Of a DNA stretch of 64,000 nucleotides, positions 3,997-64,000 are shown one piece after another. Position numbers and translations under genes: made by a program. The notes beneath the pieces were generated by a model. It was not told the origin of the DNA and ran no database searches. It saw only the letters and a list, made by a program, of their open reading frames with translations. The stretch lies in the NCBI RefSeq assembly GCF_002959855.1, contig NZ_PPDB01000001.1, positions 62,001 to 126,000 on the forward strand, in the 5' to 3' direction. Source of the stretch: Veillonella denticariosi JCM 15641 (GTDB taxonomy: Bacteria; Bacillota; Negativicutes; Veillonellales; Veillonellaceae). How positions within the stretch are numbered: the first letter of the stretch is position 1; every line of letters starts with the position of its first letter.

Positions 3997-4285
3997 AGAT
4001 AACTCCTTTTTCTATTCCCATGAGTGAGGCGTTAGAGTCTCATTCATTAACTCTCTCTGCTATAAGAGGATAGTTGCATCTATTACTTGAAGAACGTATA
4101 GCTTGGATTGAACAGGCCTTTCAAAGCGACTTTACCTTCACTGTGGATTTCGATTCTTGAAATCTTACGTTCAGGACTAAGTGATGTGTGGCTCCCATGC
4201 GTCGCGTTGCTCCTCTGTTAGCTCACACCCTACTTATGGCCTGCGAAGGCGCCCGTTCAGTGGAGCTTTTAAAGGCCTGTTCAAT
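3997..4285. repeat. Large nested hairpin element between rbsK and rbsD
   Basis: A 16-bp perfect inverted repeat, gattgaacaggccttt at 4106-4121 and aaaggcctgttcaatc at 4271-4286, encloses about 150 bp. The stem continues outward with cgtata (4095-4100) against tatacg (4287-4292), leaving a 5-nt bulge, so the rbsK stop codon lies within the stem. The interior has a further gtgtggct/agctcacac pairing. No open frame was recognised here. It lies inside the operon and may modulate rbsK against rbsDACB expression, or it may be a repeat element. Confidence 0.6.
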
Positions 4286-5176
4286 CTATACGTGTTCCGC
4301 TAAGAATGCAGCGACTTCGTCCTTTGTCGGCATGCCGCCTTGAGCACCCAGGCGCTGGATGGAGAGGGCAGCCGCCGCATTCCCGTAATGTAAGGCATCA
4401 GCGAGGCTTTTACCATTGACGATAGCCGTCGCAAAGGCACCGTTGAAGGTATCACCGGCACCTGTTGTATCCACCGGCTCAACCTTGAAGCCTGATACCG
4501 TTAGGATTTCGCCCTTGTCGGCATAGCCGACGCCCCTGCTGCCGAGGGTAACGATGATTTTATTTTCGTTAGCCAACAAAGTTTCTTCCGTAGATTGGTC
4601 AGGGTAGAGGGCTGATAGCTCATGTTCGTTTGGAGTGATGTATGTTGCCAATTCTAACCATTCAGGACTGAGATCAGCTGTCGGAGCCGGATTTAAGAGG
4701 ACTTTCACATCGGCCTCGTGACAACGACGCACGATATATTCGATAGTCGGAACAGGAATTTCGTTTTGAACCATTACGAGATCGGCCTGCTCGATAGCGG
4801 ACCACGCGTTGTCTACTATGGATTTATCGACCTTCGCGTTAGCACCGGCAATAACGATGATGCTGTTGTCACCTTCGGCTAACGTGATGTGAGCTGTACC
4901 TGTTGTAGTGTCCGGCACAGTGACAATGTAGTCTGTATTAATGAAATTTTCTTTCAGATTATCTAAAATCATCTGACCGTATGCATCTTGACCGATGCAG
5001 CCGACCATAGTGACCTTTGCACCTAGACGGGCAGCGGCCACCGCCTGGTTGGCCCCTTTGCCGCCGTGAGCGATGTGCAATTCGTTGCCCATAATGGTTT
5101 CGCCTGCCGCAGGACGTTTATCCGCGAGGACTACAATATCCATGTTGCAACTGCCAATAACAACAATGTGATTCAT
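4286..5176 (-). CDS. rbsK: Ribokinase RbsK
   Basis: Phosphorylates ribose to ribose-5-phosphate in the cytoplasm. This 296-residue PfkB-family kinase has GSCNMDIV at the N-terminus, the first PfkB signature GGKGANQAVAAARLG near residue 38, and the second signature DTTGAGDTFNGAF near residue 235 with the catalytic aspartate in GAGD. TAAGGAG lies 5 bp before the ATG. It is the first gene of the operon. The promoter must lie in the AT-rich gap upstream. Confidence 0.95.
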   Translation of the reverse strand: MNHIVVIGSCNMDIVVLADKRPAAGETIMGNELHIAHGGKGANQAVAAARLGAKVTMVGCIGQDAYGQMILDNLKENFINTDYIVTVPDTTTGTAHITLAEGDNSIIVIAGANAKVDKSIVDNAWSAIEQADLVMVQNEIPVPTIEYIVRRCHEADVKVLLNPAPTADLSPEWLELATYITPNEHELSALYPDQSTEETLLANENKIIVTLGSRGVGYADKGEILTVSGFKVEPVDTTGAGDTFNGAFATAIVNGKSLADALHYGNAAAALSIQRLGAQGGMPTKDEVAAFLAEHV

Positions 5177-8241: not shown

Positions 8242-9789
8242 ATGGAACGGATTCAGGATCTTGTGTATACCCATGTGCAGGGTGGTCAGTTCAGGTGGGT
8301 CACGGTCAGCACGTTGATGCTGGCGTTGGGGGCTATTTTACATTTGGTGAGCCCCAGTGTATTGGGTGTAACGCCGAACTGGATGATTGCTACGTACTGC
8401 GTGGCTATTTTATTGACGCGGCCCAGTTTGAGTCAAACTTTAGGGATTGGACTTGTGGCGGCGCTCATCAATGTGTTGACGTCTAAATCGGCATTCCCGT
8501 ACGGTAACTTGTTGTCCGAACCGGGTGGTGCGTTGACGGCGGTCCTCGTAGCGCGTGCTATGATGTCCGTCAAGTTCCATAAAATTGGCGGCTTTGATAT
8601 TACGCCGGTTATTACGGGCTTTATGGCGACCGTTGTGTCCGGCGGTATTTTCGTAACGATTTTGTGGCAGATTCTCGGATTGCCGAATAATGTATATATG
8701 TACGGTATGTGGCCTATGGTACTTATCGTCGGTGCGTTGAACGGCGCCATTACGCCGATTCTATACATTCCGGCTCAGCGGTTGTTTTCAAAGCGCGGTA
8801 TGTTGCCGGATGCGGATCAGTTAACATCGGATCATAGCGGCCTCACCATTTTGCCGGAACGGCAGGCGAAAATTTCCATCGAGCATATGAATTATTATCA
8901 TCCGAAGGCGACCGCTCCGACGTTGGAGAACATCAATCTCGATGTGCATGACGGTGATTTTCTCGTCGTGACGGGTCCTGCCGGTTGTGGTAAAAGTACC
9001 CTCTGTATGGCGATGGTAGGGGCGGTGCCTAAATTTTACGGCGGTCGTCTCGAAGGCATGGTCTTCGTAGAAGGGAAAGCGACGACACAGCTTGAAATTC
9101 CTGAATTGGCGAATCACATCGGGGTTGTTCTCGCCGATTATGATACGCAGCTCGTAACGATGACCGTTCGCGAAGAGGTGGCATTCGCCATGGAAAATCG
9201 CGGATATCATCGGGATGTGATTGAAGCGCGTTCCCAAGAGGTGTTTGAACAGGTCGGTCTCGTAGGTTTAGAGGACCGCAAGATTACGAGCCTTTCCGGC
9301 GGGCAGCGTCAACGGCTGGCCATTGCCTCCGTTTTGGCTACAAATCCGTCTATATTGGTGCTCGATGAACCGACCAGCTCTCTTGATCCCGACGGTACCG
9401 CGGAATTGTATCGAATTGTGGGCGGCTTGAACCGGAATCACAATATTACCGTTGTGGTTATCGATCATGACCTTCATGCCGTGTTGCCGTACGCAAATCG
9501 GATGGCTCTCATGGTGGACGGTTCCATCGTGTGCGATGAGGACGTTCCTACAACGCTTCGCTATATGTACGAGCACAATATTCACGTCGATGCATTGCCG
9601 TCCGTATTTACAACCTATATGGAACTGGAACAGGCGGGTTTTCATAGTGATGAACCTTGGCTCAGTATCGAATCCGCTATCAAGGGCCTGCATCAGCTGG
9701 AAATGGCGCATGCCATTCAGGTTGAGGTCCATGGTGAAAGTTCCGTTGATGAAATCGTAAAGGGAAAGGACGGTGGCACGCATGCTTAA
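8242..9789 (+). CDS. ECF transporter: TrpP-like S component fused to EcfA ATPase
   Basis: 515-residue fusion. Residues 1-190 are a membrane domain with five or six segments that resembles the tryptophan S component TrpP of Bacillus (LHLVSPSVLG, MIATYCVAILLTRP, TSKSAFPYGNLLSEP). From about residue 210 comes an ABC ATPase with Walker A GPAGCGKST, signature LSGGQRQRLA and Walker B ILVLDEPTSSLD. S components and ATPases are usually separate proteins. The next genes supply the second ATPase and the EcfT scaffold, so this is a dedicated, self-contained importer. Tryptophan as substrate is inferred from the TrpP resemblance only. Confidence 0.8.
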   Translation: MERIQDLVYTHVQGGQFRWVTVSTLMLALGAILHLVSPSVLGVTPNWMIATYCVAILLTRPSLSQTLGIGLVAALINVLTSKSAFPYGNLLSEPGGALTAVLVARAMMSVKFHKIGGFDITPVITGFMATVVSGGIFVTILWQILGLPNNVYMYGMWPMVLIVGALNGAITPILYIPAQRLFSKRGMLPDADQLTSDHSGLTILPERQAKISIEHMNYYHPKATAPTLENINLDVHDGDFLVVTGPAGCGKSTLCMAMVGAVPKFYGGRLEGMVFVEGKATTQLEIPELANHIGVVLADYDTQLVTMTVREEVAFAMENRGYHRDVIEARSQEVFEQVGLVGLEDRKITSLSGGQRQRLAIASVLATNPSILVLDEPTSSLDPDGTAELYRIVGGLNRNHNITVVVIDHDLHAVLPYANRMALMVDGSIVCDEDVPTTLRYMYEHNIHVDALPSVFTTYMELEQAGFHSDEPWLSIESAIKGLHQLEMAHAIQVEVHGESSVDEIVKGKDGGTHA

Positions 9790-22034: not shown

Positions 22035-23867
22035 ATGGTTATGAATGGTATTTACTTAGTTATAGCCTCCGCGTGTATTCTAATTTTAGCGTACCGCTTT
22101 TATGGGGCTTTCATAGCGGCGAAGGTGCTCACCTTGGACCAGTATCGTCCGACGCCGGCTATGGTTCACAACGATGGTCACGATTATGTACCGACCAATA
22201 AATGGGTTACATTCGGTCATCACTTTGCGGCTATCGCCGGTGCAGGTCCTCTCGTAGGTCCTGTTATCGCAGCTCAGTTCGGGTATTTACCGGGCGCCTT
22301 ATGGATCCTGATCGGTTCCGTTGTGGCCGGTGCCGTACACGACATGGTTATTCTCTTCGCATCCGTTCGTTACGACGGCAAGTCTATTGCGGATATTGCG
22401 CGCGAAGAAATCAGCAAATGGGCCGGATTCGGTGCCATGCTTGCCACATTGTTCCTGTTGATTATCACCCTTGCGGGGATGGCCGTAGTGGTGGCTAATG
22501 CGTTGCATAACTCCCCTTGGGGCTTCTTCTCCGTATTCGCTACGATTCCGATTGCTATTTTTATCGGCATTTATTTGAAATGGTTGCGTCCCGGTAAAAT
22601 TCAGGAAGCCACCGTTATCGGTGTGGCTTTGATCTTTGCGGCTATTATTTATGGTCCGAACGTGGCTGCCAGCGAATATGCGCATTGGTTTACCTATGAT
22701 TTACAGACCATTGAAATCATGCTTGCTATTTACGGTTTTTTTGCAGCCGCACTTCCTGTATGGCTCTTGTTAGCACCTCGTGATTATTTATCTACATATC
22801 TTAAAATCGGTACTATCGGTGCATTGGCACTCGGTATTATCATCGTAATGCCTGAAATTCAGATGCCGGCCATCACTCCTTATATCTATGGCGGCGGTCC
22901 TGTGTTGAAAGGTTCCGTATTCCCTTATATTTTCATTACTATCGCCTGCGGTGCGTTATCCGGGTTCCATACTGTTATCGCTACCGGTACAACACCTAAG
23001 ATGCTTACTAATGAACGGGAAATTTTGCCTATCGGTTACGGTGCCATGTTGACGGAAGCATTCATCGCCATGATGGCTTTGATTGCGGCGACTGCATTGC
23101 ATCCTGATGATTATTTCGCAATTAACTCCACTGTGGAATCCTTTAAGGCGTTAGGCCTTCAGGTTCATGAATTGCCTAAATTGTCTGCAATGGTCGGCGA
23201 AGACTTGATGCATCGTCCTGGCGGTGCCGTATCCCTTGCTGTAGGGATGGCTCACATCTTCTCCAAATTACCTAACATGGATCATTTGATGGGCTATTGG
23301 TATCACTTCTGTATCATGTTTGAAGCTTTGTTCATCATGACATTGATCGATGCCGGTACACGTGTAGGTCGTTATTTACTTCAAGAACTGCTCGGTCATT
23401 TCTACCATAAATTCAACGATCAGCATTGGGCTCCCGGCGTGTACGGATGTGCTGCTTTGATTTGCGTATTGTGGGGTTACCTCGTATTGCAGGGGAACAT
23501 TGGTATCATTTGGCCTCTATTCGGTGTATCCAACCAATTGCTGGGCACCATGACATTGGCCGTAGGGACTACCGTTATTATGCGTCTCGGTCACAAGCGG
23601 TATGCATGGGTAACAGGTATTCCTTGTGTATTGATGGCTATCGTCGCTATTACGGCCGACTTTGAAAACGTATTCAACAGTTATATTCCCGCGGGCAAAT
23701 GGATTCTAGTGGCATTCAGTGCAGCTATGTTCCTTATGATCCTCATCGTATTGGTTGAGGCTGTTCGCAGCTGGATTCGCTTATCCGGTATTCCTCAAGA
23801 CTATCGCACTCAGGCTGAAATTGAGGCTGAAAGTCTTGTAAAATACGGCAAAGAAGCAAAAGCATAA
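22035..23867 (+). CDS. CstA-family peptide/pyruvate transporter
   Basis: 610-residue inner-membrane protein of the carbon-starvation CstA family, with about 16 hydrophobic segments. YVPTNKWVTFGHHFAAIAGAGPLVGPV near residue 40 is the family hallmark, as is CGALSGFHTVIATGTTPKML in the middle. Family members import peptides or pyruvate. ATG 22035 is chosen for GGAGG 7 bp upstream; the longer frame from 21966 would add a spurious hydrophobic leader. It is a single-gene unit with its own terminator. Confidence 0.92.
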   Translation: MVMNGIYLVIASACILILAYRFYGAFIAAKVLTLDQYRPTPAMVHNDGHDYVPTNKWVTFGHHFAAIAGAGPLVGPVIAAQFGYLPGALWILIGSVVAGAVHDMVILFASVRYDGKSIADIAREEISKWAGFGAMLATLFLLIITLAGMAVVVANALHNSPWGFFSVFATIPIAIFIGIYLKWLRPGKIQEATVIGVALIFAAIIYGPNVAASEYAHWFTYDLQTIEIMLAIYGFFAAALPVWLLLAPRDYLSTYLKIGTIGALALGIIIVMPEIQMPAITPYIYGGGPVLKGSVFPYIFITIACGALSGFHTVIATGTTPKMLTNEREILPIGYGAMLTEAFIAMMALIAATALHPDDYFAINSTVESFKALGLQVHELPKLSAMVGEDLMHRPGGAVSLAVGMAHIFSKLPNMDHLMGYWYHFCIMFEALFIMTLIDAGTRVGRYLLQELLGHFYHKFNDQHWAPGVYGCAALICVLWGYLVLQGNIGIIWPLFGVSNQLLGTMTLAVGTTVIMRLGHKRYAWVTGIPCVLMAIVAITADFENVFNSYIPAGKWILVAFSAAMFLMILIVLVEAVRSWIRLSGIPQDYRTQAEIEAESLVKYGKEAKA

Positions 23868-23885
23868 TAATTGAAAATTTAAATA

Positions 23886-23912
23886 AAAAGACGAGGTCTG
23901 ACCTCGTCTTTT
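23886..23912 (+). terminator. Terminator of the cstA-like gene
   Basis: A 12-bp perfect stem, aaaagacgaggt and acctcgtctttt, with a CTG loop and flanking A and T tracts, 19 bp after the stop. Confidence 0.9.
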
Positions 23913-24000
23913 CTTTTCCCTCAGTAATGTTTCATAGTCTCATTATTAACAGGTGCCGGGATAACAGTTTATTTTGATTGGACACCTTTAGCTGATGTTA

Positions 24001-24074
24001 TGAACAGGAGTGCCTATACCGGATAAGCGACTCAGCTTGCTTTGGAGCGCAGAAGGTATAGGCACTCCTGTTCA
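24001..24074. repeat. 20-bp perfect inverted repeat with 34-nt loop
   Basis: The arms 24001-24020 (tgaacaggagtgcctatacc) and 24055-24074 are exact reverse complements. No T-run follows, so it is not an obvious terminator. It lies 70 bp before the AsmA-like gene. The stem core GTGCCTATA recalls the long-loop hairpins at 12908 and 37751. Confidence 0.7.
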
Positions 24075-24144
24075 ATATAAATGTAGTAATATAGCGAGAC
24101 GAATCAAAATAAAACTTATACTTTCAACGTGCTATAATAGGGCT

Positions 24145-25764
24145 ATGAAACATTACATGCGTTCCTATTGGATAAAATATAAACAATTGTATAAGAAAGG
24201 AATCAAGGGGATTATCTTATTCCTTGCCATCGGCGGGATTGTATTTTTTATCCTCGCGACGATTGCCAGTCGTGGTATGGGCGTTATTTTCAACGAGGTT
24301 ATGGCTCGACAGACCATCATGCGCGGTACGGTTACGGTTGAAAGCTTATCCGCCACGCCGTGGGGAACGTTGTCCTTTACAGAGCTTGTCTGGAAGGATC
24401 CGGAAGGCCATGAACTGCTCAATGCACCGAGCGGTAAGATTCGCGTTAATATGTGGGATATCGTAACTCGAAATTTTAAGGCCTCCGCGGTGCGTGAAAT
24501 CCTGTTGGAGGATGCGGTGGTCGTTATTGATCTGGATGACAATAACCGTGTGGATTTTGTGCCTATGTCGCCGGATGTTACAAAACCTCTCAATGAGGTG
24601 GAACCGCGACCGAAAGCGCCGAAGAAAACGACGCAGGAACGGCAGGAGGAATTGGGTAAACGCGTCCGCAATTTTAATTGGCAGGGACAACATCTGGATG
24701 TGAAAATTGAGCTGCGCCATAATCAGCTGGAAATCTTTCAAAAAAACAGGCATTATGTGATGAAGGATGTAAATGCGAAAATTGACCTCGATAGCCATCG
24801 TGCTATGCGCATCGATTTGGAGACCGGCAAATTCGGCGGAACTGCTATCGGCGACGGACTCGTCATGAAAGGTCGTATCGATTTGAAGGATGTGTTGAAA
24901 CATCGCATGCCGCAACTGAATCTGCAGCTCGATATCAAGGGTGTGGATCCCGCATCCCTCGGGTTCGGTGATAATATTCATGATGCGATGACCTTGCTCA
25001 CAAAGGTGACGGGAGATTTAAATCGTCCTTATGCAAAGGGGCGCGTCACGATGCCGGTGTTGCATATTCCTGCACTTACCTTTGAAACTGTTGTAGGGGA
25101 TGTGACCTATCAAGACGGAAATTTAAATTTTGAAAATGTCAGCGCCAATGTGTATGGCGGCAAATTACAGGCGAAGGGCATATATAATCTCGATACCCGC
25201 GCCTATACCATTACGGGAACCGCGACGGATCTCGATAGCAGTATAGCCTTAAAAACGCCGGAGTTCGACGTTCCCGTATCGGCGAATTTGAACTTTAAAA
25301 GTGAAGGTAAGCCGCGAGATATGGAGGTGTGGGGGAATTTCTGGTCCGGCGAGGGCCATTATGTATTGATACCGATTAAGAGCATTACGGGAAACTTTCA
25401 CAATAAGGGGCGTCATTTATCCTTTAGTGATGTGAAAGTTAACACGAATGTCACCACAATTTCGACGGATGCCTTGCGTATCGATAATGGGGAGCTCACA
25501 CTGGGACCATTGAATATCACCTCTCATGGGGGCAGTAATTTCTTTATTTATGATGAAGATGAAATCGATAAGATGGATGCCAATATGGACCGGATTAAGA
25601 GCGGCATGGGGCAAGCCGGCGAAAATATGAAGCGCGCCTCCGAATCTGCAAAGGGTCTTGATAAGTCGGGCCTCACACCGCCGCCGGACATGAAGGAATC
25701 CGTGAAGGATTTAAAACGGGGGATAGATGATTTTAAAGAATCTGTTAATAGAAATCGTCATTAA
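24145..25764 (+). CDS. AsmA-like envelope protein
   Basis: 539-residue protein anchored by one N-terminal membrane segment (IKGIILFLAIGGIVFFILATIASRG begins near residue 23). A long beta-rich periplasmic region follows, of the AsmA/TamB-like repeat type (ESLSATPWGTLSFTELVW, NAPSGKIRVNMWDI, FENVSANVYGGKLQAKGIYNL). The C-terminal tail is Lys/Asp-rich and helical. Such proteins span the envelope of diderms and are linked to lipid transport, so the call fits a Negativicutes host. A TATAAT lies at 24133-24138, only 6 bp before the ATG, so the message could be nearly leaderless; ATG 24157 is an alternative start. Confidence 0.7.
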   Translation: MKHYMRSYWIKYKQLYKKGIKGIILFLAIGGIVFFILATIASRGMGVIFNEVMARQTIMRGTVTVESLSATPWGTLSFTELVWKDPEGHELLNAPSGKIRVNMWDIVTRNFKASAVREILLEDAVVVIDLDDNNRVDFVPMSPDVTKPLNEVEPRPKAPKKTTQERQEELGKRVRNFNWQGQHLDVKIELRHNQLEIFQKNRHYVMKDVNAKIDLDSHRAMRIDLETGKFGGTAIGDGLVMKGRIDLKDVLKHRMPQLNLQLDIKGVDPASLGFGDNIHDAMTLLTKVTGDLNRPYAKGRVTMPVLHIPALTFETVVGDVTYQDGNLNFENVSANVYGGKLQAKGIYNLDTRAYTITGTATDLDSSIALKTPEFDVPVSANLNFKSEGKPRDMEVWGNFWSGEGHYVLIPIKSITGNFHNKGRHLSFSDVKVNTNVTTISTDALRIDNGELTLGPLNITSHGGSNFFIYDEDEIDKMDANMDRIKSGMGQAGENMKRASESAKGLDKSGLTPPPDMKESVKDLKRGIDDFKESVNRNRH

Positions 25765-57089: not shown

Positions 57090-58139
57090 ATGAAAGAGAA
57101 CATATATAGTATCCTCTACAATGAGTTGGTACTGAATTATGCGAACGGCAAAGGACGTACAAATCGGCGGGATTTTTGGCTAACTAAGGCCTCTATAGTC
57201 TTTTTATATGGATGTATTACCCTACTTATGGGACTGGTGGCCGTCTTTACGCCAAATCATTTTATATATGTCGTCGGATTTGGAAAAGGTTTATTGGTTT
57301 GTTTAACATTACTCTTGTGCCTACCTATGATCATGCTGATGGCACGGCGATTACGGGATTCCAACAACTCCCGTGAATTGCTTGTTTTGATACTGGTGCC
57401 CATACTGGGTTGGCTACTGTTAATTTTTTTCTTTTGTAAGAAAAGTCAGCCGTATGCCCTCAATACTGAAACGGATTCGAATGTTGCCACCGTTTCTAAT
57501 GCGGAATCTGCTTCCAATACTGAATTTGCCCCTAATTCAGATTCCGGCTATATTTCTGGAGGTGATTCCGTTTCCGAGGTCGCCTTTGACCATCATTCCA
57601 TTTCGGCAAGCGTTTCCGGCAATGAACGTGTGGCTGCTCATAATGTGCCAATCATTATAACGATTGCGCTATTGGTGGTCGGTTCTATTTGTAATTATTT
57701 AGGTATGTCTCTCGTTGATCGAGCCTATGATAGAGAGTTATCCGCCTATGCCGCATTGCAACCGAGTTCTTTTACAAGAAAAGCGGCTATAGAATTGAGA
57801 AATCCGCAAGCTACAGCGGAAGGACGCAAGGTGGTCGAACTATATTTTGATGCTCTTGCGAAAGGGGATTACAGGACGGCATATCGTCAATTAGCACCTC
57901 GTGAGATGGAGCGATACGGTGATTTTGAGACATGGAAACACAAGGTGGATAAGCAGCATTATGCGGTGGAAAATATTTCACTGGACTTTGTCTATCGCAG
58001 TGAGGACGATGAACCGATTAAGGAATATATGGGCTATGTTGTCACTTTCAAAGGCAATAGACGGAGTATGGCTGTTAATATGTATTATACGGGAACGGCG
58101 TGGGTGATTTATTCTGTAAAGCCCGCTGAAAAGGAGTAG
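57090..58139 (+). CDS. DUF805 membrane protein with C-terminal NTF2-like domain
   Basis: 349 residues. The N-terminal 120 residues form a DUF805-type membrane domain: NYANGKGRTNRRDFWLTKAS, then several membrane segments and MARRLRDSNNSRELLVLILVPILGWLLL. A Ser/Asn/Thr-rich linker follows (about 125-185). Then come a further membrane segment (IIITIALLVVGSICNYLGM) and an external domain with RKVVELYFDALAKGDYRTAYRQLAP, which resembles NTF2-like/DUF4878 domains. Function unknown. First of three adjacent DUF805 genes. AAGGAG precedes the ATG. Confidence 0.7.
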   Translation: MKENIYSILYNELVLNYANGKGRTNRRDFWLTKASIVFLYGCITLLMGLVAVFTPNHFIYVVGFGKGLLVCLTLLLCLPMIMLMARRLRDSNNSRELLVLILVPILGWLLLIFFFCKKSQPYALNTETDSNVATVSNAESASNTEFAPNSDSGYISGGDSVSEVAFDHHSISASVSGNERVAAHNVPIIITIALLVVGSICNYLGMSLVDRAYDRELSAYAALQPSSFTRKAAIELRNPQATAEGRKVVELYFDALAKGDYRTAYRQLAPREMERYGDFETWKHKVDKQHYAVENISLDFVYRSEDDEPIKEYMGYVVTFKGNRRSMAVNMYYTGTAWVIYSVKPAEKE

Positions 58140-58146
58140 GTGAATT

Positions 58147-58716
58147 ATGCGATCAGTAAATATATATGATTTAAATTACACCGATGCGTTCCTCTTGGGG
58201 GTCAGGAATTTTGTAAATTTTAAAGGCCGTGCAAGTCGTAGTGAATATTGGCGTTTCATAGCGTGTATCATGATTATGCAAGGTATCGTGGAGGTATTTC
58301 TTTTTCTCTGTCATGAAATAGGTTTTTATCAGGCTTTTAATAGCTTTCAGTATGTCAGCATGGGTGTGAGCCTGCTCTGTATATTGCCTAATCTGGCCAT
58401 CACGACGCGGCGCATGCATGATATCGGGCGAAGCGGATGGACACAGCTATTGGGATTTATTCCGATTATCGGTGTATTTATGCTGCTCACCTATGAATTG
58501 CGCCCCGGTGATAAAGGCGTCAATGTCTATGGTGAACGAACCGGTTATATTACGGTGACGCCTGAATTGAGTCAAACAATCGGTGTGGAAGTAACGCCTA
58601 CACGACGCCAGGACTGGCTCATGGGAACAGTAGTATTCCTGTTTCAGGTAATTTCTATGACTTCGTTCGTTATCAATCTGATCTGGGTATTTGTTAATTT
58701 TAACGGTTACTTTTAG
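58147..58716 (+). CDS. DUF805 membrane protein
   Basis: 189 residues with four membrane segments and the family hallmarks FVNFKGRASRSEYWRFIACIM near residue 22 and TTRRMHDIGRSGWTQLLGFIPIIG near 90. GVNVYGERTGY resembles the usual proline/glycine-rich end, and one extra membrane segment closes the protein. DUF805 proteins are common but without a known function. It starts 7 bp after the previous DUF805 gene and is co-transcribed. Confidence 0.82.
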   Translation: MRSVNIYDLNYTDAFLLGVRNFVNFKGRASRSEYWRFIACIMIMQGIVEVFLFLCHEIGFYQAFNSFQYVSMGVSLLCILPNLAITTRRMHDIGRSGWTQLLGFIPIIGVFMLLTYELRPGDKGVNVYGERTGYITVTPELSQTIGVEVTPTRRQDWLMGTVVFLFQVISMTSFVINLIWVFVNFNGYF

Positions 58717-58995
58717 AGGCCTTGAATGACTGCTTTTAATACATATTTGTTCTTGGTGTTTAGAAATCAGATAATAGCGGCTCAATATAATCGGTGAGTT
58801 TATATTAATTTATGAAAGTTTAACAACTCCTTTATAGACAATATAAGACTTTGTAGTAATATGAATATAAGATGAAATTAAAATCGTCTTGTATGGAAAT
58901 CAAATATGATTCCCTTACTATCATGTGCGTATATATCTATAGGTATAGTCTATTCATATACCAAATATATGAATTGTCGAAGAAAGGAGTTATCC

Positions 58996-59622
58996 ATGAG
59001 GATGTGTCCATATTGTGGACACGAGGGGTTGAATAGCGGCTCATACTGTTCATACTGCGGTCGTATTCATAATGTATCAACCTCGTTAGATAAATATAAT
59101 TTAGGATTGATCGAGAATTGTAAGAGATGTCTCATCTATAAGTATGCCGATTTTGAAGGCCGTGCAAGTCGTGGTGAATACTGGTATTTTTTATTGATGT
59201 ATCAGCTGCTCTTTGTGGCGACTCTCTTTATCTGTGCTTTTTTGAGTTATATTAGTCCATTGTCCAGCATCGTCGGTGTAGGGGTAGGATTGGTGCTGTT
59301 AGTGCTTATATCCGTAGCCGTAGCAATTCCCGGCGTTGCCGTTGCTGTCCGTCGTCTTCATGATCAAGGACGTTCGGGCATTTTTGTGTTTATTAATATT
59401 ATACCGTTAATAGGAACGGTGATTTTCTTTATCCTGATGGCCATGCCCGGTGAAAGTACAGAGAATCGATTCGGTATGCCGACCGGTTATATGCGGATGA
59501 CGAAGCGGATGGCGCATGAGATGGGGCTTATAGACGCATCGCCGACAATGAACCTTATCGTAGGCATCATCTGTACGATTGTTGTGCTGTGGTTCTTTGT
59601 GGATCGGTTAATTATGGCTTAG
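58996..59622 (+). CDS. DUF805 membrane protein with N-terminal zinc ribbon
   Basis: 208 residues. MRMCPYCGHEGLNSGSYC and SYCGR at the N-terminus form a four-cysteine zinc-ribbon (two CxxC). A DUF805 domain follows, with YKYADFEGRASRGEYWYFLL, membrane segments, VAVRRLHDQGRSGIFVFINIIPLIG and STENRFGMPTGYMRMTK. One more membrane segment ends it. Third DUF805 paralogue in a row, behind a 280-bp gap with its own promoter region. ATG 58996 follows AAAGGAG; the upstream frame from 58906 is not supported. Confidence 0.8.
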   Translation: MRMCPYCGHEGLNSGSYCSYCGRIHNVSTSLDKYNLGLIENCKRCLIYKYADFEGRASRGEYWYFLLMYQLLFVATLFICAFLSYISPLSSIVGVGVGLVLLVLISVAVAIPGVAVAVRRLHDQGRSGIFVFINIIPLIGTVIFFILMAMPGESTENRFGMPTGYMRMTKRMAHEMGLIDASPTMNLIVGIICTIVVLWFFVDRLIMA

Positions 59623-59737
59623 ATTTTAATCAATCGTTTGAAACATTATATTTGCTTTAAAATTAAAAATTGTTGAATTGCTTAAAATACAATATGCAAT
59701 TGGACAGTATTTAGATCCACTATTTTAGTTAAATTGT

Positions 59738-59781
59738 AAATTGCACCTTCAAAAGTAAGTTAAATTTTGAAGGTGCAATTT
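59738..59781 (+). terminator. Terminator after the zinc-ribbon DUF805 gene
   Basis: A 17-bp perfect stem, aaattgcaccttcaaaa and ttttgaaggtgcaattt, with a 10-nt loop, flanked by A and T. It acts in either direction. Confidence 0.85.
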
Positions 59782-60051
59782 TATGTTGAAATAGGATGGT
59801 GAAAAATGTAAATTTGTTGTACAATTTAATAATTGAAGCATGTATCTATAGATGTTTTCTTTTATTTGACTAAAAAAATAATAAATTTTAAATTAATGCT
59901 TGCATTATAAAAACAAAAGCAGTATAATCAACTTAACAAAAGGTAAAGTAAATTTTACATAAAGTAAATTAAAGTTTACTAAAGGTAAATTTAATTTAAC
60001 TGAGAGTGCAATAGACTTTTCCGGATGCAAATTTTTATTTTATTGTAGTAA

Positions 60052-60150
60052 ATGTAAGACGTGTTGTATCGAATGTAAGACGTGTTGTACCGATAGTAAG
60101 CCGTGTTGTGTTGTATGTAAGGCGTGTTGTATTGAATGCAAGAGTGTTGA
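60052..60150. repeat. 21-bp tandem repeats
   Basis: Four full copies of atgtaagacgtgttgtatcga-type units at 60052-60072, 60073-60093, 60094-60114 and 60115-60135, plus a partial fifth. They differ at a few positions. They lie in the leader of the XRE-regulator transcript. On the minus strand they read as a seven-residue repeat (NTTRLT-like), judged incidental. Confidence 0.8.
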
Positions 60151-60219
60151 AGTCTGTTTTGAAATAGTAGATGGAATTATTTCGAAACGACGGACGAGTA
60201 AAAGGGAGCAGTGGGAGAA

Positions 60220-60414
60220 ATGGCAAACAAAATTAAGCTTTATAGAACTATGTTGGGCTTATCTCAGCATGAATTAGCGGAAAAAGTAGGTGTTACTAGA
60301 GCGACAATTAATAGCATTGAAAATGGAAAAACGATTCCTAGTTTAAAATTAGCTAATGATATAGCCGTAGTTCTCGGTAGAAGCATAAACGATGTATTTC
60401 ATACATTGAACTGA
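60220..60414 (+). CDS. Small XRE-family transcriptional regulator
   Basis: 64-residue single-domain HTH protein of the XRE/Cro type: KIKLYRTMLGLSQHELAEKVGVTRATINSIENGKTIPSLKLANDIAVVLGRSINDVF, given here as the family landmarks LSQHELAEKVGVTRATINSIE and GKTIPSLKLA. It closely resembles YozG-like small regulators. ATG 60220 follows GTGGGAGA. It heads the peptide cluster and is the obvious candidate regulator of it. It has no sensor domain, so it may act as an autorepressor or bind a peptide partner. Confidence 0.85.
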   Translation: MANKIKLYRTMLGLSQHELAEKVGVTRATINSIENGKTIPSLKLANDIAVVLGRSINDVFHTLN

Positions 60415-60509
60415 AAACGGAGATTAAATTTAATAACTGGTAGATAATAAACCTGCATTACTCATGACCACCGGGCAAAGGGCTGTTTCATAATATTTTA
60501 GTCCATATT

Positions 60510-60590
60510 TCTTTGTGTGTTATACATACGCGCAAAGAATATGCATAAGGCCTTAAATGGTGGAATACTGTGTGAATGGAGGTTTTTATT
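60510..60590 (+). promoter_or_regulatory. Conserved leader RNA before peptide 1
   Basis: ctttgtgtgt and atacgcgcaaag form a hairpin with G-U pairs at the positions that differ from the other two leaders. It is followed by the shared block gaatatgcata...aatggtgg and aatactgtgtgaatggagg. The same architecture precedes peptides 2 and 3. The final GGAGG is the ribosome site. Confidence 0.6.
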
Positions 60591-60689
60591 ATGTTATTCA
60601 CGAAACTTTTTAAATCCGGTAATTGTCTTGCTCTTTCTGGAGGAATTATTTTGCTTAGTTATGGACCAAATTGGTTGTGGGGTCTTTAA
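60591..60689 (+). CDS. Short precursor-like peptide 1
   Basis: 32 residues, too short for standard gene finders. N-terminal MLFTKLFKSGNCLALSGG, a hydrophobic middle, C-terminal SYGPNWLWGL. It is the most divergent of three paralogues that share MLFxKLxKSGNC and SYGPxWxWG. GGAGG lies 8 bp upstream. The basic start, single Cys at residue 12 and aromatic C-terminus suit a secreted, processed signal or antimicrobial peptide. A double-glycine leader is not obvious (SGG at 16-18). No known family was recognised. Confidence 0.75.
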   Translation: MLFTKLFKSGNCLALSGGIILLSYGPNWLWGL

Positions 60690-60719
60690 TTGTTAATCTA
60701 TTTATTTTATATTATTTTG

Positions 60720-60806
60720 ATCATACTCTTTGTGAACTTTAAGTTCATAAAGAATATGCATATAAAGTCTCGGATGCTGGGAAACTGTGTGAATGGAGGG
60801 TTTACT
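60720..60806 (+). promoter_or_regulatory. Conserved leader RNA before peptide 2
   Basis: Hairpin ctttgtgaac/gttcataaag (10 bp, one G-U), then gaatatgcatataaa, the segment gtctcggatgc (60767-60777) that pairs perfectly with gcatccgagac (60985-60995) beyond the peptide gene, then actgtgtgaatggaggg. Confidence 0.7.
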
Positions 60807-60905
60807 ATGTTATTCTCAAAACTTACTAAATCTGGTAACTGTGTTTCTGTTGGTATAGGTATTTTTGCTGTTAGTTATGGTCCAAGTTGGGCATGGGGTT
60901 TCTAA
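60807..60905 (+). CDS. Short precursor-like peptide 2
   Basis: 32 residues: MLFSKLTKSGNCVSVGIG, then IFAV, then SYGPSWAWGF. It is nearly identical to peptide 3 in the first 16 and last 10 residues and varies in the middle, a pattern of conserved leader and conserved core. GGAGGG lies 7 bp before the ATG. An earlier in-frame start at 60690 would give 71 residues but ignores this ribosome site and the paralogue boundaries. Confidence 0.8.
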   Translation: MLFSKLTKSGNCVSVGIGIFAVSYGPSWAWGF

Positions 60906-61110
60906 CTGTCAACCCATTTAATCTATTTGATAAACTAAGACTTATAGTGATTTATTTTAAGATTTACTGATTAAATGAGCGCTGGCATCCGAGACACTTT
61001 ATTTTAAGTTTGACAGCATATCAGTTAAATTTTAGTAATTGATGAATTTATTATAAGTTGTTCAAATGCGTATGTGTGGTATTTTATTAAGATTATTTAT
61101 TTCATATTTT
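60906..61110. other. Spacer between peptide genes 2 and 3
   Basis: AT-rich and non-coding. The notable part is gctggcatccgagacactttatttt at about 60981-61005, the 3' partner of the peptide-2 leader. It matches in position and partly in sequence gctaccattcaagacccttcatttt beyond peptide 3. No terminator was seen, so the peptides may be co-transcribed. Confidence 0.5.
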
Positions 61111-61199
61111 TGAACATACTCTTTGTGGAATTTATGTTCACAAAGAATGTGTATAAAGTCTTGAATGGTAGTAATACTGTGTGAATGGAGGAATTTACT
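61111..61199 (+). promoter_or_regulatory. Conserved leader RNA before peptide 3
   Basis: Hairpin ctttgtgGaa/ttcacaaag, then gaatgtgtataaa, the segment gtcttgaatggtag (61158-61171) that pairs perfectly with ctaccattcaagac (61379-61392) beyond the peptide gene, then aatactgtgtgaatggagg. Confidence 0.7.
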
Positions 61200-61298
61200 A
61201 TGTTATTCTCAAAACTTACTAAATCTGGTAACTGTGTTTCTGTAGGCGTTGTGCTTGTTAGTGTTAGCTATGGTCCAAGTTGGGCGTGGGGCTTCTAA
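61200..61298 (+). CDS. Short precursor-like peptide 3
   Basis: 32 residues: MLFSKLTKSGNCVSVGVV, then LVSV, then SYGPSWAWGF. DNA of the first 45 bases is almost identical to that of peptide 2, so they arose by recent tandem duplication. GGAGG lies 8 bp upstream. The protease and exporter genes begin 190 bp downstream. Confidence 0.8.
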   Translation: MLFSKLTKSGNCVSVGVVLVSVSYGPSWAWGF

Positions 61299-61491
61299 TT
61301 ATTTATTAGATTTATATTAATAAGGTACTTAAAATATAATTCATTATTTTGATCTAGATGTAACTGGTCAGATAAAAGCTACCATTCAAGACCCTTCATT
61401 TTAATAGTTTTATTCAATGATTATGTTTAGTTTTGTTGATACGTTGATGTTAATAATAAAATAAATAGTTTGTTATAAAGGATTGAGATCA
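61299..61491. other. Spacer with the 3' pairing partner of peptide 3
   Basis: Non-coding. It contains ctaccattcaagac at 61379-61392, exactly complementary to the peptide-3 leader. No terminator or promoter was identified with confidence, and AAAGGA at 61477-61482 serves the next gene. Confidence 0.5.
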
Positions 61492-62109
61492 ATGAATCAA
61501 ATTAAGGAAGATAAGGAGAAGTTATATATAAATTTTGTTGTTCTATCTGTATTTCCAGTTATTTTAACACTTGTTGCAGGTTTAATAATAGATCTTCTTA
61601 TCGGTGATTTACGATATGGTCACTTTTCCGCTTTGATTACCGTTTGGATAAGTATGATTATTGGAATGGTAATTTTCCCGGTGATTTATTTACGCAAAAA
61701 TGATAAAGAGGTATGTAATTTATCTGATTTAGGGCTAGTTATTGATTTACCGATGGATGGTATAATTATAGGTCTTTTGATTGTATCTCTTATAATAGTA
61801 AAAACAATATTTTTAGGAGGCGATATTGTCTTTGCCCTTATGCAGAACATACCGATTGCTTTTTGTGAGGAGTTCTGGAGTAAGGGCGTTCTTTTTACCC
61901 AATTAAGACAAATATTTAGGAATGATTATATTGTCGTTGTAATAGCGGCAATGGTATTTGCTTTTATAACACATTTGGGGAATAGTTTTGTAGACAATCT
62001 TGTGCTTAGATTTCCTTTCGGATTAATTGCCGGGTTCATTTACTATAAAACAGGAAAGCTAGCGTACCCTATTTTATTACATTTAATATATAATGCAATG
62101 CTTGTTTGA
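61492..62109 (+). CDS. CPBP/CAAX-family intramembrane metalloprotease
   Basis: 205-residue membrane protein with seven or so membrane segments and the family motifs in order: CEEFWSKGVLF near residue 126 (EExxxR/K motif), FAFITHLGNSF near 157 (FxxxH), and LLHLIYNAM at the end (HxxxN/D). Bacterial CPBP proteases occur in bacteriocin and peptide-signal clusters, where they process precursors or give immunity. Its place between the short peptides and an exporter fits that role. ATG 61492 follows AAAGGA by 9 bp. Confidence 0.78.
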   Translation: MNQIKEDKEKLYINFVVLSVFPVILTLVAGLIIDLLIGDLRYGHFSALITVWISMIIGMVIFPVIYLRKNDKEVCNLSDLGLVIDLPMDGIIIGLLIVSLIIVKTIFLGGDIVFALMQNIPIAFCEEFWSKGVLFTQLRQIFRNDYIVVVIAAMVFAFITHLGNSFVDNLVLRFPFGLIAGFIYYKTGKLAYPILLHLIYNAMLV

Positions 62110-62148
62110 TGTAAAATGGTAATTATTAATGATTCAAGGAGGCCGATT

Positions 62149-62565
62149 ATGAAAAAATATGTTTTTATATTGTCTCTTGTATATCTTCTCAGTATATTTG
62201 CCCTTACGGTATATACTGATCAATTTAATGGATTATCTGTTTTGGGTATCCTTGCAGCTCAAATTCTTATTTCGATTATTCTTTTGTTTCTTTTCAGAAA
62301 TCAAGCAAAACAACATTTGAAGACATTGGCAGGACTTAATATTGCTTTTTTTGCAGTATATAGCTTTTTACAGAATTTCTTTATCTTAACAGGCAGCAGA
62401 CTTGAAACAATTCTGGCAAATAGTAATTTTATAAACAGTAATAATGTAACCGTACAAGCTAACAATCCAATAGAAGATACTATTACCGGCATCGTTATTT
62501 TCGCGATTTTACATTGGTTTGTTACCTATCGATTAAGTAGAGCAAAGAAAGATGAAACGGTTTAG
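62149..62565 (+). CDS. Small four-helix membrane protein of the peptide cluster
   Basis: 138 residues, family not recognised. Membrane segments are at about 4-20, 29-50, 62-80 and 112-130, with an exposed loop (GSRLETILANSNFINSNN) between the third and fourth and a basic tail (RLSRAKKDE). It may be an immunity protein or an exporter accessory. AAGGAGG precedes the ATG. It overlaps the ABC transporter gene by 14 bp, so it is translationally coupled to it. Confidence 0.6.
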   Translation: MKKYVFILSLVYLLSIFALTVYTDQFNGLSVLGILAAQILISIILLFLFRNQAKQHLKTLAGLNIAFFAVYSFLQNFFILTGSRLETILANSNFINSNNVTVQANNPIEDTITGIVIFAILHWFVTYRLSRAKKDETV

Positions 62566-64000
62566 CTTACTCTTTCAAAAACCGTTAATGGCGATAAGTT
62601 CATTAACGCTAGCCATCCTTTATGCAATCGCGTTGCCGGCATTAGCGCTGTTAATACAATGGATTACTAATACTTTGGTTGAAAAACAGGAAATCAGTTC
62701 CGCTCAGGTAATGATATCTTTAGGATTTGCAGTGGCTGTTCTTGGCATATCGGCTTTATATGTATATGTAAAGGATCGATTGATAAATTCTATAATACGA
62801 ATGGAAAAGAACCGTATTTTTACAGAAGTATTTAGTAAGAATATAAGTGATTTCCGTAAGAATAATACATCCGTTTATACATCTGTTCTCAATCAAGATA
62901 TTTATATTATTGAAGATGATTATTTTGAGACCCTGTATAGTATTGTCGGTGGCATAGCTACAGTTATTGCTGCATTTGTTATTATGTGGTTTATATACTA
63001 TAAAATTATCTTTATTATGCTAGGGTTAGTTATAGCAGGCTTGATCATCCCCAACTTACTAGGCACTAAGATGGGGAAGTATAAGAACGAATATCTCGTC
63101 AGTTTTGGACAGTTTAATGGTGTTATAAAAGATTATTTTAATGCTTTTGAAGTCATCAAGGCTTATCGTGTATTGGTAAATGTTATAAATTCGTTTGGCC
63201 GATATAATAATGCACTTGAAAGTAAAAGACTGAAAAGTAAGTTGTTCGAAGATATTGTTTTGGTTGTTTCTAATTTTGCCGCATTTATGTTGAGCTTGGC
63301 AATGTTTCTCATATGTGCCTATTACGTGAGTATAAATGAAATACGTGTGGGCGATATGGTTGCCGTTGTGCAGCTTTCCAACAGTATTATGAGCCCTATT
63401 ATGATGATATTGTTGTCATTGGGGCGTGTCATTTCGGCAAAAAAAGTATGGAATAATATCGATGAGATCAAGTTGCGAAAATCTGGTGTTCATGATATTG
63501 ATATCGATAAACTACATGATACCGATCAGATTCAATTCAGTAAAAGCATAGAATTTAAAGATGTCAGTTTTGCTTATCCGGGAAAAGAACAGAATACACT
63601 TCAAGATATCAATATAGTATTCGAGAAAGGTAAAAAGTACGCAATTGTAGGCATGTCCGGAAGTGGGAAAACAACTTTATTAAAGATGATTTTGCGTTAT
63701 TTTGACAACTACTCAGGCTCTATATTTATTGATGGATACGAATACAGTAAAATTGATGATGAATCCGTGTATGATAATATCACATATATGCAGCAGCATA
63801 GTGTGATGTTCAATGATACGTTGGAATACAATTTGACGTTGGGTAACACGGTTTCCGATAACTTATTGGATCAGGCTATTGATAAGGCAAATCTAAGAAA
63901 GACCGTTGATAAATTAGCTAAAGGACTTAAAACGATTGTTCAGGAGAACGGAATTAATTTCTCCGGTGGAGAGAAAAAGCGTATTGAAATATGCAGAGCG
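62552..64000 (+). CDS. ABC exporter (membrane plus ATPase domains), incomplete at right edge
   Basis: 483 codons to the end of the window without a stop. Residues 1 to about 320 are an exporter-type membrane domain with segments near 15-40, 55-75, 130-175 and 240-300. From about 335 the ATPase domain has EFKDVSFAYPG, Walker A GMSGSGKTTLLKM, Q-loop ITYMQQHSVMFND and signature NFSGGEKKRIEICRA. It lacks an N-terminal C39 peptidase, so any precursor cleavage must be done elsewhere, perhaps by the CPBP protein. ATG 62552 lies within the preceding gene. It is the likely exporter of the short peptides. Confidence 0.88.
   Translation, partial: MKRFSLLFQKPLMAISSLTLAILYAIALPALALLIQWITNTLVEKQEISSAQVMISLGFAVAVLGISALYVYVKDRLINSIIRMEKNRIFTEVFSKNISDFRKNNTSVYTSVLNQDIYIIEDDYFETLYSIVGGIATVIAAFVIMWFIYYKIIFIMLGLVIAGLIIPNLLGTKMGKYKNEYLVSFGQFNGVIKDYFNAFEVIKAYRVLVNVINSFGRYNNALESKRLKSKLFEDIVLVVSNFAAFMLSLAMFLICAYYVSINEIRVGDMVAVVQLSNSIMSPIMMILLSLGRVISAKKVWNNIDEIKLRKSGVHDIDIDKLHDTDQIQFSKSIEFKDVSFAYPGKEQNTLQDINIVFEKGKKYAIVGMSGSGKTTLLKMILRYFDNYSGSIFIDGYEYSKIDDESVYDNITYMQQHSVMFNDTLEYNLTLGNTVSDNLLDQAIDKANLRKTVDKLAKGLKTIVQENGINFSGGEKKRIEICRA

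Follow-up and report, generated by a model that had tools for sequence, protein, structure and literature searches.

The window analysed here is a stretch of 64,000 nucleotides from Veillonella denticariosi JCM 15641 (NZ_PPDB01000001.1, positions 62,001 to 126,000), and the locus described below lies on its plus strand, close to its right-hand end. A gene for a small Xre/Cro-type HTH regulator (60211–60414; Pfam HTH_3, E = 6.3e-18) stands ahead of three short, tandem ORFs of 32 amino acids each, which encode putative precursor peptide 1 (MLFTKLFKSGNCLALSGGIILLSYGPNWLWGL; 60591–60689), peptide 2 (MLFSKLTKSGNCVSVGIGIFAVSYGPSWAWGF; 60807–60905) and peptide 3 (MLFSKLTKSGNCVSVGVVLVSVSYGPSWAWGF; 61200–61298). 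All contain Cys and have the common start MLFxKLxxSGNC, followed by a variable end. Downstream are the genes of a CPBP/Rce1-like intramembrane protease (61483–62109; Pfam PF02517, E = 2.2e-15), of a 149-amino-acid protein of unassigned family that is probably membrane-bound as judged by eye and has no Pfam family at E ≤ 0.1 (62116–62565), and of an ABC transporter with membrane and ATPase domains, which runs beyond the window end (62552–64000). A radical SAM/SPASM protein of 411 amino acids (Radical_SAM, E = 2.2e-24; SPASM, E = 2.6e-9) is encoded past the window end (G000:C1:126266–127501). Since short Cys-containing ORFs adjoin a radical SAM/SPASM protein, peptides 1–3 look like the RiPP precursors of a radical-SAM cluster. 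The same combination is found in the StsB (sactipeptide) and WgkB clusters, and it is accompanied here by an ABC transporter and a CPBP protease. The maturase, however, scores far below the curated cut-offs of those families (121.6 of 625 bits for the StsB type and 113.2 of 650 for the WgkB type), and no NCBIfam equivalog cut-off was reached among the best 25 of 85 families.

Several other features surround this cluster. Two runs of 21-nt direct repeats are found 5′ of the Xre gene (59921–60004 and 60022–60147), one AT-rich and the other ATGTAAGACGTGTTGTA-like; such repeats, two helical turns apart, are suggestive of binding sites for a regulator. Further upstream, three successive ORFs that appear alike by eye, the last with a DUF805 domain, occupy 57090–59622; a look-alike trio also precedes the RiPP locus in the related genomes G009 and G012. 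Within 59600–61600, no Rfam 15 family matched at or above its gathering score, and the four sub-gathering matches (up to E = 1) all fall at 59718–59809, outside the peptide cassettes. A scan of the same interval for terminator-like hairpins with T tracts found none, which is consistent with a single transcript. A promoter-consensus scan gave nine matches, not above shuffles (mean 11.5). The motif TATAAAG located 5′ of P2 was considered as a −10 box and rejected, as by eye it is not kept in the G012 cassette or in cassette 1 of the window.

Each peptide ORF forms part of a cassette with an upstream hairpin, P1, found at 60504–60543 in cassette 1 (ends placed by eye), and at 60722–60758 and 61115–61151 in cassettes 2 and 3 (from fold energies and RNAalifold). 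It is followed by the 5′ arm of a long-range helix, P2. The sequence-only reading had proposed that peptides 2 and 3 are each enclosed by complementary segments, and both pairs are exact: in cassette 3, GTCTTGAATGGTAG (61158–61171) is the complement of CTACCATTCAAGAC (61379–61392) over 14 nt, and in cassette 2 the match of 60767–60777 with 60985–60995 covers 11 nt. Allowing two G·U pairs, the P2 helix of cassette 2 extends to 14 pairs between GTCTCGGATGCTGG (60767–60780) and CTGGCATCCGAGAC (60982–60995). The matched changes noticed between the two helices (T-A to C-G, A-T to G-C) are real. The Shine-Dalgarno (SD) motifs GGAGG of peptide 2 (60795–60799) and peptide 3 (61187–61191) both lie outside P2. 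Cassette 1 has a 5′ arm (GCCTTAAATGGTGG; 60550–60563) without a partner in the window, as had also been noticed; the best helix there does not stand out from chance, with 54 of 100 shuffles reaching it.

How readily such helices arise by chance was assessed with 2000 dinucleotide shuffles of 60501–61480, at loop lengths of 100–300 nt. An exact helix of at least 14 pairs appeared in 2 of the 2000 shuffles and one of at least 11 in 185, while two or more such helices, one of them of at least 14 pairs, never occurred together (0/2000). Over the whole window there are four exact helices of 14 or more pairs (at 61158, at 4106 and two in 23777–24156), so helix length alone is no proof; shuffled windows held any such helix in 4 of 100 cases. 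The repeat at 4106–4286 is an exact 16-nt inverted repeat with a 149-nt loop in the gap between two minus-strand ORFs, and is perhaps another enclosed structured RNA. At 23924–24156, a nested palindrome of 233 nt with outer arms GTAATGTTTCATAG/CTATGAAACATTAC, inner arms and a strong central hairpin surrounds an intergenic stretch, and a 15-nt match (23777/24016) overlaps it.

When 61100–61420 was used as a query against 60 genomes, the two matches were the genome itself and G009, and among the 28 genomes of the family the maturase was found in three at E ≤ 1e-60 (G000, G009 and G012). Two other species of the genus thus carry the locus, the comparison of the three species resting on one genome per species. 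Searches with the radical SAM protein returned three matches in the 380 genomes of the class at 1e-50 and four in 398 genomes of the phylum at 1e-40, and its profile returned three in the same 398 at 1e-60, the own genome included each time. The protein pattern gave 12 stretches in genome contigs, none of them a relative, and a DNA pattern gave three (L019–L021), near records possibly being left out of both searches; in viral contigs neither pattern had a match. At 21–38% identity, 22 viral loci match the radical SAM protein, and among plasmids and phages it was found on one Streptococcus salivarius plasmid and in one unannotated phage record.

Seven cassettes are known from the genus, three in the window, three in G009 and one in G012, and a model of the cassette 5′ part found these seven copies only in 380 genomes at E ≤ 0.01. 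Six of the seven have both P2 arms, which are separated by 199–217 nt and form 14–16 contiguous pairs. The 5′ arm starts approximately 40–45 nt before the start codon, AATGGAGG begins 11–13 nt after this arm in all six, and the 3′ arm lies 76–88 nt after the stop codon. The exception is cassette 1 of the window. In its G009 counterpart the 5′ arm is matched by a 3′ arm (GCCTTGGATGTTGG with CCAACATCCAAGGC), and 209 nt separate the peptide 1 stop codon from the following P1, against 32 nt in the window. Peptide 1 thus lacks a partner because, relative to G009, a stretch of about 177 nt that includes the 3′ arm is absent. As both G009 and G012 have this stretch, we infer that it was lost in the lineage of the window. 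In keeping with a recent loss, the orphan 5′ arm can still be paired with the 3′ arm of G012, all 14 positions being Watson-Crick complements.

Comparison of the six complete cassettes strongly supports the idea, first raised for the window alone, of an RNA fold that encloses each peptide ORF. Standard pairs occupy all 84 cells (six cassettes by 14 pairs), and arms that diverge without compensation were looked for and seen in none of the six. Half of the P2 pairs (7/14) are invariant, one has a one-sided change and six have changed on both sides, one of the latter showing three Watson-Crick types (GC, CG and UA). Controls in which the partner was slid by 1–3 columns were 25–44% paired. None of 500 column shuffles reached the observed paired share, the number of doubly changed cells or the covariation score; as many doubly changed pairs as observed were reached in 22 shuffles, and as many pair types in 84. 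When the 3′ arms were permuted among the cassettes, all 84 pairs were kept in 4 of 720 arrangements, the real order included; according to the pairing matrix, the other three merely swap orthologous copies. These statistics are shuffles and permutations on few, related sequences and not an R-scape analysis. Without constraint, RNAalifold recovers both P1 and P2, with the G012 arm one column off register, and adds a few short helices with little covariation. The core of P2 is predicted with a probability of at least 0.9 in each of the six cassettes. Between orthologues, the arms are weakly indicated to differ slightly less than their surroundings, with identities of 26/28 versus 0.90 and 27/28 versus 0.85 for the rest. 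Judged from these comparisons, P2 almost certainly exists as a structure kept for pairing.

Distant relatives of the maturase, 33–38% identical to it where measured, were also found in two other families (G692, G554 and G768, of one genus; G777 and G780), and a further one lies on the S. salivarius plasmid. Six distant precursors could be aligned with the seven of the genus, sharing the common start, one C and one G. Eleven distant precursors were tested for a duplex between −62..−22 and +25..+115, search intervals that had been narrowed after the first distant match, and four have a helix at the equivalent place, of two independent types. The first precursor of G692 has a helix of the 15–16 bp type (GACTGTACACCAGGA with TCTTGGTGTACAGTC) and its G768 orthologue one of the same type, neither reached in 300 shuffles. 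Between these two, one A-U pair has become G·U and the outermost G-C pair is lost; their arms are identical at 27/30 positions versus 0.78 for the rest. The precursors of G777 and G780 have a helix of 10+3+7 bp (0/300 and 1/300 shuffles), which is unremarkable in wider intervals, where 13/60 and 10/60 shuffles reach the best helix. These distant arms share only place and pairing with those of the window, with no evident likeness in sequence.

No P2-like helix was detected at that place in the other seven of the 11: two later precursors of G692, three others of G768, and those of G554 and S. salivarius. The G554 precursor has an AU/GU-rich helix of 17 nt at −90/+50 (2/100 and 0/60 shuffles), which falls outside the place defined from the window, and was counted as lacking P2 (269/300). 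The S. salivarius precursor was likewise counted as without P2, its best helix being reached by 45/100 shuffles in the wider interval and by 21/300 otherwise. G579, a match at 1e-40 that is GC-rich by eye and in which no precursor was recognised, was left out of the helix test. The duplexes of the ten P2 cases range from −24.1 to −32.5 kcal/mol, and among control ORFs (at least 80 amino acids, eight loci) 3 of 126 had one of −24 kcal/mol or stronger. A fixed cut-off of −24 kcal/mol was rejected as a null, given that 23% of 1500 random placements in coding DNA of the window reach it; composition-matched shuffles were used because such a cut-off is not useful there.

Some further features were observed in the distant loci. 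In G768 (L039, 3170–3200 and 4155–4180) and G554 (L033), a short hairpin (CG)CTCA..TGAGCG is found 5′ of some precursors that have no long helix, at about the same upstream distance as the long helix elsewhere. Another hairpin, AAGACAAGCCCC..GGGGCTTGTCTT, lies between the last precursor and the radical SAM gene (L034, ~8730–8760; L039, ~4498–4532) and is a possible attenuator. The G768 maturase gene is split by two copies of a 317-amino-acid ORF that appears transposase-like by eye (L039, 4552–8098). The S. salivarius plasmid (NZ_CP018188.1; L029, 2583–6825) carries a related cluster with the precursor MLKFSTKKTKKAGCVSVGALVSVSIGHYIKEVKSTV, and its maturase gene is divided into two parts, which flank an IS1595-like element and lnu(C).

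That the arms act as RNA and not as DNA is indicated by their imperfect pairs. Read on the sense strand, all six non-Watson-Crick cells of P2 are G·U, and A·C does not occur; the six represent five independent positions if the one in cassette 2 of the window (win2) and g9_2 is shared by descent. Both kinds would be expected of repeats under selection as DNA or in drift, and G·U alone thus points to RNA elements of the sense transcript, that is, to a selected mRNA structure. The P1 hairpin of cassette 1 (60505–60548) is likewise more stable on the sense strand (−14.5 versus −7.2 kcal/mol), as are five of the seven P1 copies, the other two being 0.4 kcal/mol weaker; by eye, a C·A mismatch is retained in four copies. 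P1 appears RNA-like in these predictions, and a DNA operator would be the less likely interpretation. Quasi-palindrome correction, in which template switching keeps inverted repeats matching, would also give coordinated changes of both arms, and matched arms of this origin would have no RNA function. Other long inverted repeats do exist in the window, and the P2 duplex of cassette 3 with its flank is stronger antisense (−24.7 versus −22.0 kcal/mol sense). The remaining five of the six duplexes are stronger on the sense strand, one of them by just 0.3 kcal/mol, and the arms stand ~200 nt apart and keep the same placement around precursors despite unrelated sequence, so that with the G·U bias and the strand preference of P1 counting against it as well, we consider template switching very improbable. 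The earlier suggestion that the arms are terminal repeats of a cassette is disfavoured by the same G·U cells and by the difference of the arms between copies. One to three tandem copies per genome, each bounded by its arms, could be expected of a mobile or shuffling peptide cassette, yet such a cassette should bear the same repeats on every copy, and here the arms differ within one genome. The seven copies among 380 genomes likewise speak against mobility, and no recombinase was recognised by eye among the neighbouring ORFs; this origin is the hardest of all to credit.

If P2 is an mRNA structure, control of translation is a candidate role, and pairing of this kind has precedents. The nearest case found is the icaR mRNA of Staphylococcus aureus, where the 3′UTR pairs with the SD region and RNase III cuts (PMC3868564); in the aapA and hok type I toxin mRNAs, 5′–3′ pairing around a short ORF blocks translation (PMC6733600), and covariation in hok is claimed in the title of a reference cited there. 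As in these messages, the untranslated regions on the two sides of a short peptide ORF are here complementary at sequence level, both arms presumably lying on one transcript. By analogy, P2 might form once the 3′ arm is transcribed and turn precursor translation off, or it might hold the SD open. However, icaR blocks initiation via the SD, and aapA and hok hide theirs and act with an antisense antitoxin, whereas the SD stands 11–13 nt outside the helix in 6/6 cassettes and the gene context is that of a RiPP, with the precursor beside a maturase and an exporter. Unlike the icaR pairing, P2 also surrounds the gene of a short RiPP precursor and recurs in each cassette with arm sequences particular to that cassette. 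Because the SD masking that defines these mRNAs was tested and not observed, we do not class P2 with them; it is a variant on known 5′–3′ mRNA pairing without SD masking.

Fold predictions give no consistent direction either. Cutting off the 3′ arm and everything downstream weakens the predicted fold by 16–27 kcal/mol, and SD openness rises in two of the six cassettes, stays within 0.03 in three and falls in one. With a shuffled 3′ arm, predicted openness is lower in four of six (from 0.56 to 0.01 in win3, 0.35 to 0.09 in g9_3, 0.62 to 0.43 in win2 and 0.25 to 0.17 in the G012 cassette), equal in one and higher in one, and P2 might keep the SD open. A switch by direct pairing of the 3′ arm with the SD, judged against 500 shuffled arms per cassette, was rejected: none of ten cassettes fell under 5% (lowest 6%, in win3), and in three the pairing was weaker than in 96% of shuffles. 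The proposal that P2 controls access to the GGAGG is thus left unsupported; masking of the ribosome-binding site appears the less likely role, as SD openness shows no consistent direction in these models and in none of ten cassettes does the 3′ arm show a preference for the SD. Taken over both its forms, we regard translational control as rather unlikely. Alternatively, a transcription attenuator or intercistronic switch could gate the next cassette or the enzymes, with P2 as one of its states. A GC-rich hairpin immediately upstream of the following ORF is overlapped by the 3′ arm in G780, as would suit such a switch, but neither a terminator-like hairpin with a T tract in 59600–61600 nor, by eye, a T tract downstream of the 3′ arm of G780, G768 or G692 was found, which renders it quite improbable.

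The explanation that we favour, and in which belief and doubt are for us evenly balanced, is that P2 makes a closed RNA loop for each precursor gene and serves post-transcriptional handling of the precursor segment. Each precursor gene would be transcribed within such a loop, the P1 hairpin first and then the P2 helix. The spacing of P2 is wide enough for one ribosome at initiation and another at termination. With the SD, the ORF and the stop codon inside a loop of ~200 nt and clear of the helix, ribosomes could load and translate while P2 stays shut. P2 would then shield both ends of the precursor segment from exonucleases, or alternatively offer a double-stranded site for its excision from the operon RNA by RNase III, which the genome encodes; the outcome in either case would be precursor RNA that outlasts the RNA of the downstream enzymes. 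RNase III processing helices are familiar from rRNAs, which they flank, complementary stretches on either side closing off one segment of a polycistronic RNA. P2 resembles these stalks in that it too closes off one segment, and differs in that its helix is much shorter and surrounds a coding segment. A stem of 12 bp can suffice for cutting of one strand (PMC8708148), and the 14–16 pairs of P2 lie above this length. Protection or excision of the precursor message would suit a helix that closes off this segment only and has sufficient length for RNase III. The helix is not indispensable, being absent from 7 of the 11 distant precursors and from cassette 1 of the window.

No helix around RiPP precursors was described in the titles and abstract openings searched, a scope that lay mostly outside subscription journals, and a study on ncRNA discovery (PMC11109978) mentions neither Veillonella nor RiPP in its main text. 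We put forward, tentatively and as a possibility short of an expectation, that the precursor ORFs of one RiPP family are held in base-paired closed loops with the ribosome site free, a new mRNA architecture in which the helix may set the dosage of precursor to enzyme, through protection or excision of the precursor segment, and may have been kept, or reinvented from unrelated sequences, in at least three bacterial families. If true, the message would be circularised by pairing during translation, which would extend the few described bacterial 5′–3′ mRNA pairings beyond SD blocking. RiPP operons should require precursor in large excess over enzyme, a balance whose control is in many cases not understood. 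A helix that is visible in sequence, surrounds each precursor and lends itself to a test by compensatory mutation would provide a simple handle on the precursor:enzyme ratio, as well as a structural signal for short precursor genes missed by gene callers.
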